A stretch of 64,000 nucleotides of DNA from Ignavibacteriales bacterium (GTDB taxonomy: Bacteria; Bacteroidota; Ignavibacteria; Ignavibacteriales; Melioribacteraceae): NCBI GenBank assembly GCA_026390775.1, contig JAPLFF010000007.1:868001-932000 (forward strand), in the 5' to 3' direction. The notes beneath the pieces were generated by a model. The model was not told where the DNA came from and searched no databases. It worked only from the letters and a program-made list of their open reading frames with translations. Numbering within the stretch: the first letter of the stretch is position 1; each line of letters starts with the position of its first letter. The position numbers and the translations under genes are program-made. Positions 5,108 to 58,836 of this stretch are shown here, piece by piece.

Positions 5108-5470
5108 TTATTCATCTCTATGAACAATGCCGGGTGAAAATGCTGGAAGACAAACTGCAACATATTCTGCACCATCTGCGCCGGGAGAACTGTACTGAAC
5201 CCATTCACCTTTATTCACAATAATAGCTTGTCCTGCATTAATATCAATAACAGAATTTTTAGTAGCAACTCTTAACATTCCCTTCAACACTACAGTGTAT
5301 TCATCAAATTCAGGTTTCTGCCCGGGCTCAATCCATCCTGCCGGACTTTTCATCCTTGCAACACTAACCAAGTTTGTTTGGGAATTCACATTGCCGATAA
5401 ACTCTTCGATAATTTTAGGTTTATTTCCTGCAGCTGATATTATTGATGGAGATTCTATTTTAATTGACAA
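5108..5470 (-). CDS. Small single-domain cupin protein
   Basis: A 120-residue protein that appears to be one cupin barrel: PGQKPEFDEYTVVLKG resembles cupin motif 1, and INAGQAIIVNKGEWVQYSSP resembles motif 2. The usual metal-binding His residues of motif 1 are missing (Glu and Asp occupy that stretch), so metal binding is uncertain. It starts with TTG at 5468-5470; a weak AGAG lies upstream. Cupins of this size are often ligand-binding or sugar/amine-modifying proteins, and I cannot assign a substrate. It is transcribed in the same direction as the phosphate genes above it, but an operon is not certain. Confidence 0.82.
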   Translation of the reverse strand: MSIKIESPSIISAAGNKPKIIEEFIGNVNSQTNLVSVARMKSPAGWIEPGQKPEFDEYTVVLKGMLRVATKNSVIDINAGQAIIVNKGEWVQYSSPGADGAEYVAVCLPAFSPGIVHRDE

Positions 5471-5490
5471 AGTTTAATCTCTATTTATTT

Positions 5491-6486
5491 TTAGAACAGT
5501 TTTATAACAGAATAAGTTAAAGCTGAAACTCCGGCAGATAGTGGAATTGTTAATATCCAAGCCCAAACTATTCTACCTGCAACTCCCCATTTTACATTTT
5601 TTAATCCTTTAATAGAACCAACACCCATTATTGAACCTGTGATTGTGTGTGTGGTACTAACCGGAACCCCAAGTCCGGTTGAAATGAATAATGTTGTTGC
5701 TGCACCTAGCTCTGCACAAAAGCCATCCACAGGTCTTAACTTAACAACTTTCTGCCCCATTGTTTTAACAATTCTCCATCCACCGAACATAGTACCTAAG
5801 GCTATTGCAGTGTGACATGAAAGAACAACCCAAAGCGGAATATCTCCAGGACTATCAAACTTCTGAAGAATGCCTGCGCTGAAAAGAAGCCCTGCAATAA
5901 TTCCCATTGTTTTCTGGGCATCATTTCCGCCGTGACCCAAACTGTAAGCGGCGGCAGAAATTAATTGTCCTTTTCTAAATATATGATCTACTTTGAGGGG
6001 ATGACTTTTACGGAATAGATTATAAACAAGTACTCCTAATCCAACACCAAGAATTAATCCCAACATTGGTGAAATAAAAATAAAAATTACAGTCTTAAAA
6101 ATTCCACTTCCAACGAGGGAAGCCGGACCCGCTTTAACGAGTGCCGCTCCCATTAAACCACCAATTAGAGCATGTGACGAACTTGTAGGCAATCCAAAGT
6201 ACCATGTAATAAGATTCCAAATGCAAGCTCCCATCAATGTTGCAAAAATTATTGATGAGTCCATAATTTTGATATCAACAATTCCTTTGCCGATTGTTCC
6301 AGCGACATGAAGACCAAAAACTAAAAAAGCAATGAAGTTAAAAAATGCTGCCCATAAAACTGCGTACCGAGGTGAGAGCACTCTTGTTGAAACAATTGTT
6401 GCAACAGAATTAGCTGCATCATGAAATCCATTTAGAAAGTCGAAGAATAATGCAAGAATTATTAGTAGGAGTACCGCAATAGTCAT
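5491..6486 (-). CDS. pit: Inorganic phosphate transporter, PiT family
   Basis: A 331-residue integral membrane protein with about ten hydrophobic segments. The two inverted PiT signatures are present: FLNGFHDAANSVATIVSTR near the N-terminus (about 15-35) and LGHGGNDAQKTMGIIAG in the middle (about 190-206). Later PVSTTHTITGSIMGVG is the paired phosphate-site motif. PiT proteins carry metal phosphate or phosphate with a cation across the inner membrane at low affinity. It begins 2 nt after the stop of the DUF47 gene, the standard PiT partner, so both are co-transcribed. Confidence 0.95.
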   Translation of the reverse strand: MTIAVLLLIILALFFDFLNGFHDAANSVATIVSTRVLSPRYAVLWAAFFNFIAFLVFGLHVAGTIGKGIVDIKIMDSSIIFATLMGACIWNLITWYFGLPTSSSHALIGGLMGAALVKAGPASLVGSGIFKTVIFIFISPMLGLILGVGLGVLVYNLFRKSHPLKVDHIFRKGQLISAAAYSLGHGGNDAQKTMGIIAGLLFSAGILQKFDSPGDIPLWVVLSCHTAIALGTMFGGWRIVKTMGQKVVKLRPVDGFCAELGAATTLFISTGLGVPVSTTHTITGSIMGVGSIKGLKNVKWGVAGRIVWAWILTIPLSAGVSALTYSVIKLF

Positions 6487-50306: not shown

Positions 50307-52688
50307 ATGAAACGATTATTATTAAAATCAACATTACTGTTTTTAGTCTTCACCGCAATCATTTTCCCGCAGCAGGATCCCGTAATTAAAAAAATTATTG
50401 AGATAGGAAAAACCGATAATCAAGTTATGCGGCATCAAGATATTCTCAACAACAGAATCGGAGGAAGATTAACCGGTTCGGACCAATATCTTACCGCATG
50501 CAATTGGGCTATGAATGAATTAAAAAGCTGGGGATTAAAAGTTAAGTTAGATGAAGTCGGTGAAGTGCCGGTTGGATTTCTCCGCGGACATTGGGCAGGC
50601 AAAATGATAAAGCCGGCAGAAAAAGTTTTAGAGTTTGTAACTCCATCATATACTGCCGGTACAAAAGGGATTCAGCGCGGACCGGTTGTAATAATGCCGA
50701 AGACAGATGCCAGATTCGATTCAGTAAAAAGTAAAATGAACGGCGCTTGGGTAATGATTGACGGAGAAAATACGGGCTGGCCCCGCGACCGTGATTCTGT
50801 TGTAGCTCTTACAAGAAAATTAATGGCGGTCGGCGCGCTTGGAACAATTCAATTAACACATGTTCCGATCCGCACTTTGGATTCACGATGTGTTAAATCT
50901 TGGGATAACCTTCCAACTCTTTGTGATATAAAACTTGTGGATACTCAATACAATGAAATAAAATCTCTCGTTGAAAAGAATGAGGAAGTAATTCTAGAAT
51001 TTGAAATCCGGAATTTCTTCAAACCAGGTCCAATCAAATATTACAATGTGATCGGAACAATTCCCGGTACAAAATTTCCGAACGAATATGTTATCATCAG
51101 CGGTCATCTTGATTCGTTTGATATTGCAACCGGCGCAATTGATAACGGTTCGGGTGTAACAGCTATGATGGAAGCAATCCGTTTGATGATGAAAGCCGGG
51201 GCTAAACCTAAACGCTCAATTATGATTCATCTTTATGCTGCCGAAGAACAGGGATTGGTTGGATCAAAATCATGGGTGAATAAAAACAAAAAACTTCTGA
51301 ATAAAATTTCTCTCGTGATAAACAAAGACAGCGGAACCAATCCAGCCGTAAGTTTAGGTGTTCCTAAAGTTATGTTCGATGAAATGAAAAAAGTTGTTGA
51401 GCCGATTGAAACAGCCGGATTAAAATATCCGTTCAAACTAACCGAATCGCAGCCGTTTAGAAAAGCGGGACGAGGAGGAACAGACAGTTTTTCTTTTATA
51501 ATGGCAGGCGTTCCGGCTCCAGGTCTTCGTCTTGAAGGTCCTCATCAATATACCAAAACATGGCACACGCCGCTTGATACTTACGATGAAGTAATTCCCG
51601 ATGCGCAGGAACATTCTTCAATTGTAATTGCATTGCTTGCATACGGCGCAGCAAACTTAGATCATCTTCTACCGCGCGAAGGTGCATTTGCACCGGAAGG
51701 AATTTATGCCGATCTAAATACAAACAAAGGAAGATTTACTCTTAATCTGGATTACGAACACGTTCCAATGACGGTTGCAAATTTTGTCGGACTTGCAGAA
51801 GGAACGATTAAGAACGATGCGGTTGAAGAAAAAAAACCATATTTCAATGGAAGCATCTGGCACCGTGTTGTAGCCGGACATGTAATACAAGCAGGAATGC
51901 CTGCAACCGGAAAAGAAACCGAAGGACCTGGTTATGAATTTCCGAATGAAATATATAAAGGATTAAGTCACAACAAAGCCGGAATGCTTGGAATGGCAAA
52001 CGCCGGTGCAAATACTAACGGAAGTCAATTCTATATTACACTTGGTGACCGTTCGTATCTCGACGACAATTATACTTTATTCGGTCAAGTGACTGAAGGC
52101 ATGGATGTGGTAGAAAAAATTACTCAAGGAGATACAATAAAAAGCGTGGTGATCTCGCGCGTTGGACAGAAAGCCATGGACTTTAAAGTTACAACCGAAT
52201 CATTTAAGAAGATGGTTGATGAAGCTAATGCAAAAATAAAAGCTGATGAAGAAAAGAGACTAAAGAAAGAGGCGGAATTGATTAAAAAGAAATTTCCTAA
52301 CGTGAATGAAACGGCAAGCGGATTAAAATTTTTTATTTTGAAAGAAGGAACTGGTGATAAACCTGCCGAAGGCGCTGTTTTAAAAGTTCAGTACAAAGGA
52401 AGTTTTTTATTAGATGGAAATAAATTTGTAAGCACAAGTGTTGAAGGAAAACCAAATGATTTAGATAAACCGGAAATTTTTGAATACACAATCGGAAAGA
52501 CTAAAATTAATCCAGCACTTGATGAATCAATCGCAGATATGAAACCCGGCGAACAACGAACCGTGATTGCTCAATCAAAATTAGCTTATGGAAATAATGT
52601 TGTGTACGGAAAACAGATTGAGGGAAAAAAGCGGTTTGCAATATCTCCAAACACAAGTTTGATTTATGAATTAGAAATAATAAAATGA
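50307..52688 (+). CDS. Exported M28 peptidase fused to cyclophilin and FKBP domains
   Basis: A 793-residue exported fusion (signal peptide about 1-20). The M28 zinc-aminopeptidase domain (about 25-450) has ligands in GHLDS, GAIDNGSG, AAEEQG, TDSF and TWHTPLD, all present. A cyclophilin-type peptidyl-prolyl isomerase follows (about 465-625; MTVANFVGLAEGT, GSQFYITLGDRSYLDDNYTLFG). An FKBP-type isomerase ends it (about 665-793; GLKFFILKEGTGDKPAEG to NTSLIYELEI). Both isomerase classes plus a peptidase in one chain point to a periplasmic folding and clearing enzyme for proline-rich peptides (inference). The last 25 codons are duplicated at 56813. Confidence 0.93.
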   Translation: MKRLLLKSTLLFLVFTAIIFPQQDPVIKKIIEIGKTDNQVMRHQDILNNRIGGRLTGSDQYLTACNWAMNELKSWGLKVKLDEVGEVPVGFLRGHWAGKMIKPAEKVLEFVTPSYTAGTKGIQRGPVVIMPKTDARFDSVKSKMNGAWVMIDGENTGWPRDRDSVVALTRKLMAVGALGTIQLTHVPIRTLDSRCVKSWDNLPTLCDIKLVDTQYNEIKSLVEKNEEVILEFEIRNFFKPGPIKYYNVIGTIPGTKFPNEYVIISGHLDSFDIATGAIDNGSGVTAMMEAIRLMMKAGAKPKRSIMIHLYAAEEQGLVGSKSWVNKNKKLLNKISLVINKDSGTNPAVSLGVPKVMFDEMKKVVEPIETAGLKYPFKLTESQPFRKAGRGGTDSFSFIMAGVPAPGLRLEGPHQYTKTWHTPLDTYDEVIPDAQEHSSIVIALLAYGAANLDHLLPREGAFAPEGIYADLNTNKGRFTLNLDYEHVPMTVANFVGLAEGTIKNDAVEEKKPYFNGSIWHRVVAGHVIQAGMPATGKETEGPGYEFPNEIYKGLSHNKAGMLGMANAGANTNGSQFYITLGDRSYLDDNYTLFGQVTEGMDVVEKITQGDTIKSVVISRVGQKAMDFKVTTESFKKMVDEANAKIKADEEKRLKKEAELIKKKFPNVNETASGLKFFILKEGTGDKPAEGAVLKVQYKGSFLLDGNKFVSTSVEGKPNDLDKPEIFEYTIGKTKINPALDESIADMKPGEQRTVIAQSKLAYGNNVVYGKQIEGKKRFAISPNTSLIYELEIIK

Positions 52689-52694
52689 TGCTCT

Positions 52695-52742
52695 GTAGGG
52701 AACGCAAGGTCTTGTCAGCCATTGGTGGATTGCGTTCCCTAC
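52695..52742. repeat. 48-bp palindromic repeat, copy 1
   Basis: GTAGGGAACGCAA at one end and TTGCGTTCCCTAC (with one base shift) at the other are inverted repeats around a core with CAGCCATTGGTGGATT. A second copy of the same 48-bp length lies at 57312-57359. It begins 7 nt after the M28 fusion gene's stop. Confidence 0.85.
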
Positions 52743-52843
52743 TTTATAAAATTCAATTCGGAAATAGATCAAGACTTCCGTAAATCAATTCCGATCCTTT
52801 CTCAAATCCCTTTAAAAATCTTTTTGTCTGCTGATGTCTTTAC

Positions 52844-52918
52844 CAGCTTTTTTTATATAACAAATTGATTGACAAAGCTAAATCTCTTCTCTAATTTTCT
52901 CTTAGAGACGATAAGGAT
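52844..52918. repeat. 75-bp repeat unit A, copy 1
   Basis: The stretch from CAGCTTTTTTTATATAAC through ATTGATTGACAAAGCT and CTTCTCTAATTTTCTC is repeated at 54168-54239, after the ankyrin gene, with roughly 80% matching bases by eye. Each copy is preceded by a GCTG...CAGC hairpin and T-run. Confidence 0.75.
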
Positions 52919-53112
52919 TATTAAAAATCCAATCTAGAGACACATACAAAAAATATTGGGGTATTCAAGCTTAGAGACAAGCAAGATGAACACACATGTC
53001 AGCAATAAACAATTGAATAGATTATTACTTCACTTCAATAGATAGCGCATAACAAAAACAAAATAAATAAAAATTTATTGCGTCTATCCAACCATAAAGT
53101 AGGATAAACGAA

Positions 53113-53157
53113 ATCCGCCGAAGGTGGATTGCGTAGTTACACTAGTATACGCAATCT
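53113..53157. repeat. Repeat B (partial REP core with palindrome), copy 1
   Basis: ATCCGCCGAAGGTGGATTGCG matches the centre of the 48-bp repeat; it runs into ATTGCGTAGTTACACTAGTA and TACGCAAT, an 8-bp inverted repeat. The tail recurs at 54253-54279. Confidence 0.65.
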
Positions 53158-53228
53158 CTACATTTCAATTTTGCCGAGTAGTATCTAGCGATTATTTCAA
53201 AACAATGATTTATGAAAAGGAGTAGCGT

Positions 53229-54131
53229 ATGAAACCATTTTTCTTTATTGGAATTTTAGCTGTTTCCGTTCTGTTAAGCAGTTGTTCCAACTTTCTTCAA
53301 TCTGTCAGAACCGGGAACTATGAAGAAGTAAAGGAATCCCTATCTAGCGGCACAAGCGCTAACACAAGTGATGATCATTCCTTTTCTGCTCTGATGATAG
53401 CTTCGTCCAATGGGCACTTGGACATGGTAAAGCTGCTAGTGGAAAAAGGCGCAGATGTCAATGCCGCGAGTATTGACGGGGTGACACCGCTGGGATGTGC
53501 TGCATATGGGAACAAGCTTGATGTGGCAAAACTCCTGATAGAACACGGGGCAAAGATCAACTACAACGTTGTTGATACAACTACAGCCTCCATGACGCCG
53601 TTAATTGCTGCTGTGCAGAATAAGGAAATTTCGAAGTCAATTCTCGAGTATCTGCTTGACAATGGGGCGGATGTAAACTCAAATTCAAATTTGATGATAA
53701 GAGAGGCTGATGATCATGGGGTTCGGGTGTACGACAGTTTTAAACCAATTTACATAGCAGCGGCTTTGGGTAACAAAGAGATAGTTGAATTTCTGAAATC
53801 AAAAGGCGCGGTTCTTCCAAGAGGTAAGGGTGTATTGATAGCGGGAGATCGTATAGGGAGTAGCATTTTTGTTAAGAACTCAAGAATCGCGAGCATTGAT
53901 CAAAAAAGTGAAGATCGAATGATAGCAGAAATTGAGCCCGGTTCACATATCATTGGAGTTCGGGCGATCTTCAGTGTTAGCTGGTATCAACGTACGGTTG
54001 GACCTACGATTACACGGAAAATTGAAATCAATGCGGGGGATATAATAGTTGCACGACCCTTCATTATTGATGCTGATGAACATTCAGGGGAAAAAGAAGC
54101 TAAGTGGGATTATGTAATAGAGAAATATTAA
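53229..54131 (+). CDS. Ankyrin-repeat lipoprotein
   Basis: A 300-residue lipoprotein with lipobox LLSSC (Cys about 19). Four to five ankyrin repeats span about 25-200, with the usual SALMIASSNGHLDMVKLLV and GADVNAASIDGVTPLGCAAY layout; the C-terminal 100 residues are a beta-rich domain of unknown family (VLIAGDRIGSSIFVKN, EPGSHIIGVRAIF). AAGGAG lies before the ATG. The coding sequence looks more G+C-rich than most neighbours, and the gene is flanked by repeats A and B on both sides, which suggests it was brought in. Likely an outer-membrane protein-protein adaptor. Confidence 0.88.
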   Translation: MKPFFFIGILAVSVLLSSCSNFLQSVRTGNYEEVKESLSSGTSANTSDDHSFSALMIASSNGHLDMVKLLVEKGADVNAASIDGVTPLGCAAYGNKLDVAKLLIEHGAKINYNVVDTTTASMTPLIAAVQNKEISKSILEYLLDNGADVNSNSNLMIREADDHGVRVYDSFKPIYIAAALGNKEIVEFLKSKGAVLPRGKGVLIAGDRIGSSIFVKNSRIASIDQKSEDRMIAEIEPGSHIIGVRAIFSVSWYQRTVGPTITRKIEINAGDIIVARPFIIDADEHSGEKEAKWDYVIEKY

Positions 54132-54167
54132 AATATTTTTTGCTGAAAGTTGATAGCCGACCGCTGT

Positions 54168-54279
54168 CAGCTTTTTTATAAAACAAATTGATTGACAAAG
54201 CTATATCACTTCTCTAACTTTCTCATAAGATTAGAAGGACAATCGAAGTATCGCGTAGTTACACTAGTCATACGCAATG
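54168..54279. repeat. Repeats A (copy 2) and B (copy 2) after the ankyrin gene
   Basis: Copy 2 of repeat A covers 54168-54239 (CAGCTTTTTTATAAAACAAA... TTAGAAGGAC) and copy 2 of repeat B covers 54253-54279 (GCGTAGTTACACTAGTCATACGCAATG, split here by one extra base). The order A then B is the same as before the ankyrin gene. Confidence 0.7.
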
Positions 54280-54309
54280 CCCAACAGTGTTTGAAACGAT
54301 GACCATGAA

Positions 54310-54507
54310 GTGAACACCATGAACATGTCGTTCCCGAAACAATTCCTCAAAATATTTGAGGCATATAACGACAATGTCTGGCCAATGCAGATTATATTTT
54401 ATGTGTTAGTCATTTTTGCGGTATTCACGATTACTCGTCAACTTCACTACTTCAATCAAAGTATCTCGGCCATTTTGGTTTTTGTTTTGTTGACCGCTAC
54501 ATCGTAA
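54310..54507 (+). pseudogene. Truncated DUF6064-like membrane protein gene
   Basis: A 65-residue frame: MNMSFPKQFLKIFEAYNDN then VWPMQIIFYVLVIFAVFTIT. This matches the N-terminal part of DUF6064 membrane proteins, which normally continue for several more helices; the frame stops soon after the second hydrophobic segment (ISAILVFVLLTATS). No continuation is found in any frame before the oligopeptidase gene, so it is a decayed fragment. Family assignment is from the characteristic F-x2-Y-N-x2-VWP-x-Q pattern, moderate. Confidence 0.55.
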
Positions 54508-54639
54508 AACAAAAGAAGAGAACCCGCTTATGATGATAAACGTCCGCCGAAAATCACAAATCATGAAATTAGTTTTTAGAGTTAACTGAGAGACGAAAAA
54601 TAAAAATAATAACATATGAAAAAACATCAAGGAGGTTCT

Positions 54640-56805
54640 ATGAAAAAAATAATTCTTTCCTTCACTCTTTCTATTCTGGTTGCATGGTTGTTTACTCCAA
54701 AGCAAGCCATTGCGCAATGGAATTATCCGGCAACAAAAAAAATACCGGTCACGGATCGCTATTTTGGAAAAGCCGTAAACGACAACTATCGCTGGCTCGA
54801 GAATATGGATAGCACCGATGTGAAAGACTGGCTAAAGGCTCAGCATGATTTTACTGCCGGCATTCTCGACAAGATTCCGGGGCGTGATTCACTTATTAAT
54901 GATTTCATCCGGCTCGATGCGATGAGAGCGGCCAGCTTTAGTTCTGTCATTCGAAAAAGCGGCCGTTATTTTTATAGGAAAACATTACCTGTGGAAAACG
55001 TCAGTAAACTCTATTACCGCGAGGGACTAAACGGTAAGGAAATATTGTTGTTCGATCCTACGGAAGGCAATTCGGGAAAGAGCGTTTCTCTTTCATCCTA
55101 TTTACCAACTGAAGATGGAAAGAAGGTTGTGCTGGGCATTGCCGAAGGTGGTTCTGAGTCTGCTACCATTCGCATTATGAATGTGGATGATAAAACAATG
55201 TTCCCAGAAAGTATCTCGCCATGCTGGGGCGGCATTGGCGGATGGACAAAAGATGGGAAGGGCTTTCTCTATAATCTGATGCAATCCAGCGATGTACATG
55301 CGATTGACAGAGAGTTGAATACCAGAACTTTTTATCACGTAGTGGGCTCGAACCCTAAGAGCGATCAAGAAATCTTTTCTGCGTCAAAATATCCTTCGCT
55401 TGGGATCAAACCTCAGGATATTCCTCTAGTGAATATATCTTATGACTTTAAATATATTTTTGGATTACTGGGAACGGTACAAAATGAACTGACCATGTAT
55501 TACGCACCGGCCAGTGAGCTTTTAAATGCAACTATTACATGGAAACCCTTACTGAAACCGGAAGATGAAGTAACAGATTTTAGTGTTGAGGGGAATACGA
55601 TCTATCTGCTTTCTCACAAAAACGCACCGAAGTTCAAAATCCTGGTGACGGATTTACGAAATCCGGACATCGCTAAAGCAAACGAAGTTTTGGCACAAGG
55701 CAAGAACACCATAAATTACTTGTCACGATGCAAGGATTATCTTTTTGCCGTAACTTCGGATGGTATTAACAGTTTTCTCCATCAATACAGTTACCATGAT
55801 AAGACATGGAAAGATGTGAACCTTCCTCTAAAAGGTACCATGTATGCAGGCGGCTACGATATTACAACCAATGATTGTAATGCTTTTATTTCTTCATGGA
55901 ACACTCCGACGGTGCGATACGACTTCAATCCCGTAACCGGCACATTTACAAAAAGCATATTTTACATTGAAGTAAATTATCCCGGCGTCAATGACATAGT
56001 TGTTGATGAAGTGGAAACATCGAGTCACGATGGCGTGATGGTTCCGCTTTCTATAATTTACAATAAGAACATTAAAAGAAATGGAAGTGCCATTTGCTAT
56101 CTCGATGGTTACGGAGCTTATGGTTCTTCTGCTACGCCTTATTTCAGCGCGATGAATCTCGCACTCATAAATCGAAATGTGATCGTTGCAGTTGCTCACA
56201 TACGCGGAGGCGCGGAAAAAGGAGAGGAATGGTATCGCGCCGGTTACAAGACAACGAAACCGAACACATGGAAAGATTTTATTGCTTGTGCCGAATATCT
56301 TGTCAAAAACAAGTATACCAGTTCTCCAAAATTATTTGGCATGGGAACGAGCGCCGGTGGAATTCTGATTGGTCGAGCAATTACGGAGCGACCCGACCTA
56401 TTCGGCGCGGCAATTTGCAATGTGGGATGTTTGAATGCATTGCGAATGGAAAATTCACCGAACGGCCCAGTTAATACACCGGAATTCGGAACCGTCAAAG
56501 ACTCGGTTGAATGTATGGCTTTGATGGAGATGGATGCATTTCAACATGTGAAAGAAGGAGTGAAATATCCAGCCGTGATTTGTGTCGGCGGCTTCAATGA
56601 TCCGCGCGTCATCATTTGGCAGCCGGGCAAATTTGCTGCTGCACTGCAGAATGCATCCGCTTCGGGAAAGCCAGTATTGATGCAAGTGAATTACGACAAC
56701 GGTCATTTTACCGAAGACAAAAAAGTTGCATTCAGAAATTTTGCTAATATGTTCGCCTTCTGTCTGTGGCAGACAGGACACACTGATTTTCAAATGAAAA
56801 AATAA
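54640..56805 (+). CDS. Prolyl oligopeptidase family serine peptidase
   Basis: A 721-residue S9A enzyme. The ATG at 54640 with AAGGAGG upstream is preferred over the frame's first codon at 54616. A signal peptide (about 1-24, ending AIAQ) means export. The N-terminal propeller covers about 75-420. The hydrolase domain has the nucleophile in FGMGTSAGGILIGRA (Ser about 570), Asp in GGFNDPRV and His in DNGHFTED near the C-terminus; GTSAGG replaces the usual GGSNGG. It cleaves after proline in short peptides. G+C seems higher than in the flanking genes. Seven bases after the stop begins the displaced 3' end of the M28 fusion gene. Confidence 0.93.
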   Translation: MKKIILSFTLSILVAWLFTPKQAIAQWNYPATKKIPVTDRYFGKAVNDNYRWLENMDSTDVKDWLKAQHDFTAGILDKIPGRDSLINDFIRLDAMRAASFSSVIRKSGRYFYRKTLPVENVSKLYYREGLNGKEILLFDPTEGNSGKSVSLSSYLPTEDGKKVVLGIAEGGSESATIRIMNVDDKTMFPESISPCWGGIGGWTKDGKGFLYNLMQSSDVHAIDRELNTRTFYHVVGSNPKSDQEIFSASKYPSLGIKPQDIPLVNISYDFKYIFGLLGTVQNELTMYYAPASELLNATITWKPLLKPEDEVTDFSVEGNTIYLLSHKNAPKFKILVTDLRNPDIAKANEVLAQGKNTINYLSRCKDYLFAVTSDGINSFLHQYSYHDKTWKDVNLPLKGTMYAGGYDITTNDCNAFISSWNTPTVRYDFNPVTGTFTKSIFYIEVNYPGVNDIVVDEVETSSHDGVMVPLSIIYNKNIKRNGSAICYLDGYGAYGSSATPYFSAMNLALINRNVIVAVAHIRGGAEKGEEWYRAGYKTTKPNTWKDFIACAEYLVKNKYTSSPKLFGMGTSAGGILIGRAITERPDLFGAAICNVGCLNALRMENSPNGPVNTPEFGTVKDSVECMALMEMDAFQHVKEGVKYPAVICVGGFNDPRVIIWQPGKFAAALQNASASGKPVLMQVNYDNGHFTEDKKVAFRNFANMFAFCLWQTGHTDFQMKK

Positions 56806-56812
56806 CTGGCTT

Positions 56813-56889
56813 TACGGAAAACAGATCGAGGGGAAAAAGCGATTTGCAATTTCTCCAAACACAAGTTTGGTTTATGAAATAGAAATAAT
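56813..56889 (+). pseudogene. Displaced 3' end of the M28-cyclophilin-FKBP gene
   Basis: The 77 bases match positions 52605-52681 of the intact gene with 6 mismatches. In frame they read YGKQIEGKKRFAISPNTSL then VYEIEI, 23 of 25 residues identical to the FKBP C-terminus. The match begins 7 nt after the oligopeptidase stop and ends close to the glyoxalase gene. It has no start or upstream domain, so it is a remnant. Confidence 0.9.
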
Positions 56890-56927
56890 GCATTACCAAC
56901 CATCGTTTGGAAACGGAAAATACTCTT

Positions 56928-57299
56928 ATGCTTAATAAATCCGATCTCATCAGCTTTGTCGCAACAAGCAACGCCACGAAGGCACGGCAATTCTACGAAG
57001 AGACTCTCGGTTTGACTTTCGTAAGCGGTGATCAATTTGCTTTAGTCTTTGAAGCAAACGGAACTATGCTTCGGATTCAGAAAGTTGATCAAGTAAATCC
57101 TCACGGTTATACAGTCCTCGGTTGGAAAGTTGCCGACATAAAAAAAGAAGTTAATGCACTGTCAAAACGCGGTGTTAAGTTCGCTCGATACGAAGGAATG
57201 AATCAAGACGAAAACGGGATTTGGACTGCGCCGAGTAAAGCAAAGATTGCCTGGTTTACAGATCCAGATGGAAATATATTGTCGCTTACTGAGTTTTAG
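56928..57299 (+). CDS. VOC (glyoxalase/bleomycin-resistance) family protein
   Basis: A 123-residue VOC-domain protein: ISFVATSNATKARQFYEETLGL opens the first beta-alpha-beta-beta-beta unit and WFTDPDGNILSLTEF closes the second. Glu at the end (LTEF) is a typical metal ligand position; the other ligands are not clear. The frame may begin at a TTG (56907), but that stretch crosses the displaced FKBP remnant and the ATG at 56928 is more natural. Substrate unknown. It is the first intact gene right of the accessory patch. Confidence 0.87.
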   Translation: MLNKSDLISFVATSNATKARQFYEETLGLTFVSGDQFALVFEANGTMLRIQKVDQVNPHGYTVLGWKVADIKKEVNALSKRGVKFARYEGMNQDENGIWTAPSKAKIAWFTDPDGNILSLTEF

Positions 57300-57311
57300 T
57301 TACATAGAGTT

Positions 57312-57359
57312 GTAGGGAACGTAAATTCTTGTCCGCCATTGGTGGATTGCGTTACCTAC
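57312..57359. repeat. 48-bp palindromic repeat, copy 2
   Basis: Same 48-bp length and arrangement as 52695-52742: GTAGGGAACGTAA... CCGCCATTGGTGGATTGCG... TACCTAC. It lies 12 nt after the VOC gene. The two copies are in direct orientation. Confidence 0.85.
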
Positions 57360-57513
57360 TTTTTTTACCTTTTGTAATTAACATTTTCATCAATGATGAA
57401 TTTTCCTTTTGAACAACTATAAGAATTAGACTGACTGCTAATATCTATTATCCTATCTAATTATAACTGCCATTGTTATATTTCGGTTAAATAATACAGT
57501 AACCCGATTTTTT

Positions 57514-58836
57514 ATGAATGAACCTTTAGTAAGCATTGGAATTGTAACCGAAAAAGAGATCCGCTTTGATCTATACGGCGAATTTACTTTGAAGGGAGCG
57601 GATAAGAAGTATAGTGGAAAATTTAAAGCTAAGCTGAGCGGTGATAAAATTTCAATCAGCCAGGAGAAAAAAGAAATTTTTTCTGCTGATGAATTACTTT
57701 TTAATCCTAATGATCTTGAGACGGAATCATTTCTTCTTAGAGACGTGGTGATCGGAAAAGGTTTTCACTGGCAAAATAAAGAGAATCAAAGATTTCGCGG
57801 AAGATTAAAATTTATAAAAGAGAAAGATCAAATTACCGCTGTTAATATTCTTCCGCTCGAAGAATATCTTACAAGTGTTATCTCATCGGAAATGAGCGCT
57901 AACAGTTCAATCGAACTTTTAAAAGCGCATTCAGTAGTATCGCGTGGATGGCTTCTTGCACAGCTGGAAAAAAAGAACAAGAAAGCTGTTAACGAAATTA
58001 TTGGTAAGGACGAAATTATTCGATGGTATGATAGAGAAGATCACACCAATTACGATTTTTGCGCTGATGATCATTGCCAGCGATATCAAGGTGTAACAAA
58101 AATTATTAATGATAATGCCGTGAACGCAATTGCTTCCACGCGCGGATTGGTGTTGAAACATAAAGATACAATCTGCGATACTCGTTACTCAAAATGCTGC
58201 GGCGGTATTACAGAAGTTTTTGAAAATGTATGGGAAAATGTTCCTCACCCGTACCTAAGTTCTATCTTGGATTATAAATTTAGATTCGACGATGACCGTA
58301 CGGATATTAAAAAAGAAAAGTTTGCCGATCATTGGATAAATTCTACTCCTCAAGCTTTCTGCAATACAACCGACGAAAGAATTCTTTCAACAGTACTGGT
58401 CAACTTTGATCATTTCACAAATGATTTCTTCCGGTGGAATGTTGAATACACACAGGACGAAATAGCCGGACTAATTAGAACAAAAAGCGGAATTGATTTT
58501 GGAAATATTATTGATCTCGTTCCAATCGAACGGGGTCCTTCAACACGCATTATAAAATTGAAAATCATCGGCACTAAAAAAACTATTACGATCGGGAAAG
58601 AACTTGAGATAAGAAAAATTCTTTCTAAAACACATTTGTATAGTTCTGCGTTTGTTGTTGGAAAGGAAAAAATTGTTAAAGGTGTTCCTCAAAAATTTAT
58701 TTTGCATGGCGCAGGATGGGGACATGGTGTTGGACTTTGTCAGATAGGCGCAGCGGTAATGGGCGAACTTGGTTATGGATTTGATGAGATACTAACACAT
58801 TATTTCAGCGGTGCACAAATTCAAAAAATTTATTAA
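57514..58836 (+). CDS. SpoIID/LytB-domain protein
   Basis: A 440-residue protein with the SpoIID fold: LPLEEYLTSVISSEMSAN at about 112-129 (catalytic Glu in SEMS), AHSVVSRGWLLAQLEKK, the Cys-rich segment YSKCCGG, and the C-terminal GAGWGHGVGLCQIGAAVMG and ILTHYFSGAQI. In other bacteria SpoIID is a lytic transglycosylase acting on peptidoglycan or an amidase enhancer. Unlike most relatives, no signal peptide is visible: the first residues already belong to the fold. No ribosome-binding site precedes the ATG. It is followed 3 nt later by the BatA-like gene. Confidence 0.88.
   Translation: MNEPLVSIGIVTEKEIRFDLYGEFTLKGADKKYSGKFKAKLSGDKISISQEKKEIFSADELLFNPNDLETESFLLRDVVIGKGFHWQNKENQRFRGRLKFIKEKDQITAVNILPLEEYLTSVISSEMSANSSIELLKAHSVVSRGWLLAQLEKKNKKAVNEIIGKDEIIRWYDREDHTNYDFCADDHCQRYQGVTKIINDNAVNAIASTRGLVLKHKDTICDTRYSKCCGGITEVFENVWENVPHPYLSSILDYKFRFDDDRTDIKKEKFADHWINSTPQAFCNTTDERILSTVLVNFDHFTNDFFRWNVEYTQDEIAGLIRTKSGIDFGNIIDLVPIERGPSTRIIKLKIIGTKKTITIGKELEIRKILSKTHLYSSAFVVGKEKIVKGVPQKFILHGAGWGHGVGLCQIGAAVMGELGYGFDEILTHYFSGAQIQKIY

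Follow-up and report, generated by a model that had tools for sequence, protein, structure and literature searches.

The interval studied here lies in the window, by which we mean the whole stretch of 64,000 nucleotides that was analysed, and runs from a gene for a fusion of an M28 peptidase with cyclophilin and FKBP domains (M28-PPIase, M28 gene for short) to a SpoIID-domain gene. G numbers denote genomes, G000 being the source genome, and L numbers denote loci.

50307 to 52688, + strand: M28 peptidase-cyclophilin-FKBP fusion gene, 793 aa (Pfam PF04389, PF00160, PF00254); left border of the hotspot.
52605 to 52681, + strand: in-gene copy of the duplicated tail (tail 1), the last codons of the M28 gene (repeat comparison).
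52694 to 52745, + strand: D3a, a strong hairpin directly past the M28 stop codon, perhaps a terminator (repeat search, folding; matches sequence downstream of VOC in G004; unlisted by the terminator scan).
52849 to 52904, + strand: D2a, a promoter-like hotspot repeat, TTGACA-N17-TAATTT (repeat search, sequence model; unlisted by the sigma-70 scan).
53098 to 53146, + strand: second hotspot repeat with the hairpin CCGCC-GAA-GGTGG (sequence comparison, folding); also downstream of D2 in G008 and G006.
53229 to 54131, + strand: ankyrin-repeat gene of 300 aa whose product is probably a lipoprotein (Pfam; lipoprotein signal by eye).
54172 to 54227, + strand: D2b, hotspot repeat (repeat search, sequence model).
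54319 to 54507, + strand: truncated DUF6064 fragment, 62 codons (profile match).
54616 to 56805, + strand: prolyl oligopeptidase family (S9) gene, 729 aa (Pfam).
56813 to 56890, + strand: tail 2, the displaced end of an M28-PPIase gene, lacking the stop codon (nearest to the G008 gene).
56928 to 57299, + strand: VOC/glyoxalase-like gene (Pfam); directly follows the M28 gene in G004.
57311 to 57362, + strand: D3b, a strong hairpin downstream of VOC with T following it, perhaps a terminator (repeat search, folding; unlisted by the terminator scan).
57514 to 58836, + strand: SpoIID-domain gene (Pfam); right border of the hotspot.

A preliminary description, made from the letters alone, had named the ankyrin, oligopeptidase and VOC genes, a truncated DUF6064 fragment and dense repeats, and had stated that no integrase remains. 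Pfam agrees with the three gene assignments (ankyrin, prolyl oligopeptidase S9, VOC), the 62-codon piece is rightly called truncated because only positions 2-54 of the 210 of the DUF6064 profile were matched, the repeats are present as the pairs D2 (91% identical) and D3 (90%), and neither Pfam nor a search for the tyrosine-integrase domain found an integrase in the patch. The stretch before SpoIID (57363-57513) lacks a rhodanese-like gene (named by eye), as in G006 and G010; such a gene, likewise recognised by eye, precedes SpoIID in G001 to G005, G009, G022 and L119, in the last with one small frame between.

The direct repeat 52605-52681 / 56813-56889 matches at 71 of 77 positions (92.2%) and also falls inside a 90-nt pair of 87% identity. 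With blastn E values of 1e-26 to 1e-27 it is not a chance likeness. Its six mismatches are those already described, as is its place 7 nt past the oligopeptidase stop, which ends at 56805 (tail 2 starts at 56813). The longest identical run within the 77 nt is 18 nt. Read in the frame of the gene, six of the first 25 codons are changed, four of them synonymously and two conservatively, and the codon that follows differs as well (ATA vs ATG). Four synonymous differences out of six correspond to P = 0.018 to 0.031 under random change, or to about 0.06 (calculated by hand) if the next codon is included and the count becomes four of seven; tail 2 thus reads as coding-like. It matches the gene of G008 at 75 of 78 positions and the neighbouring M28 gene at 71 of 77, and over 74 common positions the counts are 71 and 68. 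Since tail 2 is nearer to G008 than to the gene beside it, it probably evolved for the most part within a working gene and not as debris. The divergence between the two tails is about that between species and consists mostly of synonymous changes, which together with the likeness to G008 suggests that they parted while each belonged to a working gene and were brought together afterwards, the 78 nt of tail 2 being too short for placement on a tree.

Both ends of tail 2 are abrupt. It ends shortly before the VOC gene and short of the gene's stop codon, which would lie only a few bases further on, and it has no natural downstream sequence, so that it is a piece with neither gene body nor true gene end. 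A second tail was found neither in the fetched loci nor in the 11 other genomes of the genus, four of which (G008, G003, G005 and G001) have a detectable tail. Two short matches were considered as further copies and discarded: one of 29 nt in G009, with no M28-gene match around it, and a second match of 24 nt in G005, whose flanks also lack one; both look like chance A+T-rich matches.

The best match of the ankyrin protein among 56 relatives is 38%, over half its length, and that of the oligopeptidase is 32%; outside the source genome the latter reaches 54% in a phylum sample of 395 genomes (E limit 1e-100). To judge from these searches, both genes are specific to the source genome among the 57 searched. 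Comparison of composition, proposed in the preliminary description, points in the same direction: GC3 is 0.39 for the ankyrin gene, 0.42 for the oligopeptidase and 0.39 for VOC, above the 0.28-0.32 of M28, SpoIID, BatA and HflX in the flanks. The view of the patch as accessory DNA with apparently foreign cargo is therefore supported. Matches of the ankyrin protein on plasmids (117 records) all have less than 60% identity and none covers 80% of the query. A phage was considered as the carrier and rejected as far as the search in IMG/VR went, where the ankyrin protein had no match and the coded tail pattern was not found in exact form in the viral contigs. No donor of the patch was found.

Searches with the M28-PPIase protein gave some match in 57 of 57 genomes; in 11, the source genome included, a single match spans at least 725 of the 793 residues, which we count as a near full-length orthologue. 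Both borders stand on one contig and in the usual order in eight intervals (G000, G001, G004, G005, G006, G018, G022 and L119), across which the flanking genes are conserved and the cargo differs, with partial sharing. G004 carries VOC and one further small gene; G001 VIT1-like, GNAT-like, VOC and other genes (names except VOC by eye); G006 a HindIII-type restriction enzyme and a methyltransferase; G005 a kinase and a SIR2-like protein, the SIR2 Pfam score of which is under the curated cut-off; G022 a serpin-like gene (by eye); G018 large glutamate-synthase-like genes (by eye); and L119 a PDC-S02-type protein and a serpin-like gene (by eye). The contig of G008 ends before SpoIID and shows a lipocalin gene and the first part of a gene for a type II methyltransferase. 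Blocks are common to species, namely 1.1 kb at 90% between G005 and G008 and 1.0 kb at 90% between G006 and G001. The M28-SpoIID interval is an accessory-gene hotspot in Melioribacter and its relatives; our literature search turned up no paper that mentions Stygiobacter together with Melioribacter. Inspection by eye of the open frames in the eight intervals, some of which were also scanned with Pfam or PADLOC, revealed no recombinase or transposase, and a transposase-like open frame was seen by eye in G010, where the interval is partly visible.

Three observations on single genomes are added. G007 has both border genes on one contig in a different arrangement. The methyltransferase start in G008 (L054, 6944-7261) meets a stop after 105 codons and is possibly truncated. 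The M28-PPIase frame of G005 (L056, 2160-4946) extends past the usual end to 928 residues, and the added C-terminal stretch appears retropepsin-like by eye (LLDTGAD), another change at the same gene end.

In D2 the sequence around TTGACAAAGCT...TCTAACTT forms a core that is well conserved. Nine copies served to build a sequence model, which was run over 39 genomes, with 139 candidates scored per genome so that weak copies could be missed. It gave at least 10 strong matches, scoring 45-68 bits and spread over 6 of the 39 genomes, all at the M28-SpoIID locus: between the two borders in G000, G001, G005 and G006, downstream of M28 in G008, and upstream of SpoIID in G010, the copy of which was outside the model-building set. 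These matches (52849-52904 and 54172-54227 of the window, and L054, L056, L058, L059 and L110) stand before different genes, and in 8 of 10 cases an open frame on the + strand lies within about 330 nt past the repeat. At least seven weak matches (18-23 bits) lie away from the locus. D2 as a genome-wide repeat was rejected, with two copies in the source genome (40 of 41 candidates scored; 139 of 1664 with the model). A weak look-alike of its core (TTGACAAAGTTTAATCTCT) occurs outside the hotspot at 5461-5492 of the window.

The form TTGACA-N17-TAnnTT makes D2 resemble a promoter, and read as TTGA-N19-TAnnTTT it resembles the Bacteroidota-type promoter consensus. The pattern TTGACA-N16-18-TAnnTTT occurs three times in the window, two of these being D2, against 0.6 expected, and at least three occurrences were seen in 4 of 100 shuffles. 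A sigma-70 consensus scan of 52500-57600 did not list D2 and found 10 promoter-like sites vs 12.9 expected; a terminator scan of the same stretch did not list D3 and found 7 terminator-like sites vs 4.1 expected. Folding gives D3a a strong hairpin of -24.3 kcal/mol and D3b one of -21.8 kcal/mol; of the two, only D3b is followed by a clear run of T. With at most one mismatch, GTAGGGAACGCAA is found only at the two D3 places in the source genome, and a relative of D3 follows VOC in G004.

In G004 (L057), a genome of the same genus, the M28-PPIase gene is followed directly by VOC with no other open frame of at least 60 codons between. An uninterrupted order of this kind had been named beforehand as support for an insertion; it is indeed found in G004, but VOC was not found in the closest relatives G003, G005 and G008 (G008 is only 66% complete). 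The gene is present in three of the 15 genomes searched (G000, G001 and G004), and its GC3 is high in the source genome and in both other carriers. The VOC unit is 82.5% identical to that of G004 over 452 nt of DNA, and identity to G004 falls from VOC (83%) to M28 (77%) and SpoIID (72%). Because VOC is missing from these three relatives and has an atypical GC3, the adjacency of M28 and VOC may not be the ancestral state, which would count against readings by insertion and by duplication alike. Its patchy occurrence, high GC3 and above-flank identity to G004 further suggest that VOC may itself be cargo and perhaps arrived with the patch. The junction between tail 2 and VOC is not collinear with G004, since the stop codon, hairpin and leader found there (about 130 nt) are missing here, and a second small deletion must therefore be assumed. 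The region of D3a past the M28 stop codon is 82% identical over 66 nt to the sequence after VOC in G004, as expected if two versions of the hotspot were joined.

A possible signal of exchange was seen in the M28 gene. The informative sites (118) shift along the gene with a break near alignment base 993, which was reached in 1 of 2000 permutations; the same test gave 491 of 1000 for SpoIID and a weak 44 of 1000 for BatA, with G011 standing in for G008 in the control quartets. Divergence is higher in the 3' half of M28, and repeated mutation may contribute to the shift. The result would fit recombination, and the event could lie in G008, G003 or G005 rather than in the source genome.

We consider it rather probable that the donor DNA came in through homologous recombination within the M28 gene and was then joined, illegitimately or by way of a circle, within the end of the recipient gene. 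This reading is preferred because of the layout of fused versions, the divergence of the tails, the site shift in M28 and the absence of a tyrosine integrase within about 0.49 Mb. Two versions of the hotspot would have been fused in the source genome: a left one from a relative, with the order M28-D3-D2-ankyrin-D2-DUF6064 piece-oligopeptidase, and a right one with the order M28(end)-VOC-D3-SpoIID. On its left side the incoming piece would have relied on RecA-type homology to pair with the M28 gene, and its right side would have been joined without long homology inside the recipient M28 end (homology-facilitated illegitimate recombination); alternatively, the piece would first have circularised, and a single crossover in the gene end would have brought it in. 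Both routes would leave the M28 gene whole and the recipient's old end beyond the cargo, beside VOC, and a later small deletion would have removed the stop codon of that old end. The mechanism of joining, the choice of the native tail and this later deletion are steps that we infer. Illegitimate joining at one end and circularisation with single crossover of linear DNA are both described in PMC3240628.

The earlier proposal that the patch had been inserted stands in part. An accessory patch that was inserted with a gene end duplicated is supported by the repeat, the foreign genes and G004, but not the integrating element then proposed as one way of entry. Such an element would have entered the M28 3' end in a site-specific manner, supplied a replacement end and displaced the old one, its integrase being lost afterwards. 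Elements that integrate into the 3' end of a gene restore the gene and leave an intact gene, cargo and the displaced old end, which is the geometry seen here, and the 18-nt identical core within the tail repeat would suit them as well. However, the nearest tyrosine-integrase domain (PF00589, the recombinase type searched for) is about 0.49 Mb away in the source genome, none of the patch genes is a mobility gene, and no second tail was found where one is detectable (G008, G003, G005, G001) or in the fetched loci. The repeat is imperfect, the old end is incomplete, lacking its stop codon and natural downstream sequence, the coded tail pattern is not matched exactly in viral contigs, and relatives carry different cargo. 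We therefore regard an integrating element as unlikely.

The other explanation given at the outset, a duplicated peptidase gene decayed to its tail, fares no better. A tandem M28 duplicate overwritten by cargo would account for a single tail in gene register and 8% diverged, but the interval holds no other piece of the M28 gene beyond tail 2, no duplicated gene is among the matches listed for relatives, and the greater nearness of tail 2 to G008 than to its neighbour is unlike a recent tandem copy; we hold this origin to be improbable. That the 78 nt are a short templated filler, which end joining between oligopeptidase and VOC would have copied from another species' M28 gene, would agree with the abrupt ends of the copy and with a stop codon missing though only a few bases further on, but random filler would not explain why tail 2 adjoins VOC, the follower of M28 in G004, and we give it little credence.

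Integron gene cassettes are short pieces of cargo with related repeats between them, in one orientation, and the locus shares this arrangement; here, however, the repeat looks like a promoter and stands ahead of genes, inspection of D2 by eye showed no recombination site of the integron type, and no integron integrase was found nearby in the source genome, the one searched, where the nearest tyrosine-integrase domain is the one mentioned above. It is very doubtful that D2 and D3 serve as the sites through which a cassette-exchange system, so far undescribed, operates at one chromosomal spot, with captured genes behind a ready-made terminator-promoter unit, exchange between species via such units and the displaced end as a failed or marginal exchange.

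Entry by homologous recombination with illegitimate or circle-mediated joining finds its closest parallels in two known processes. Hotspots of horizontal transfer that lack mobile elements, and whose content turns over through homologous recombination in the core genes on either side, are described in Oliveira et al. 2017 (PMC5635113); fixed flanks, cargo that differs between species, no recognised recombinase and site shifts in a flanking gene are shared with them, whereas one genome per species, a repeat family of its own and the duplicated end of one flank are different here. With homology-facilitated illegitimate recombination (Amarir-Bouhram et al. 2011, PMC3240628) the locus shares one homologous and one non-homologous border, but here these are deduced from an old scar. 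The scar looks like ordinary gene exchange at a place where related species carry differing cargo, not like a preserved mobile element. The event is a fresh example of an already known kind and its mechanism is ordinary; the locus-bound repeat family is the one part that deserves another look.

The locus preserves a legible trace of the way in which accessory genes that lack a mobile element of their own may enter a chromosome. It marks, in a family that has received little study, a hotspot that holds restriction, kinase and SIR2-like genes in some species, and the repeats confined to this locus could serve as small islands of homology that aid swaps between species and at the same time supply a promoter.
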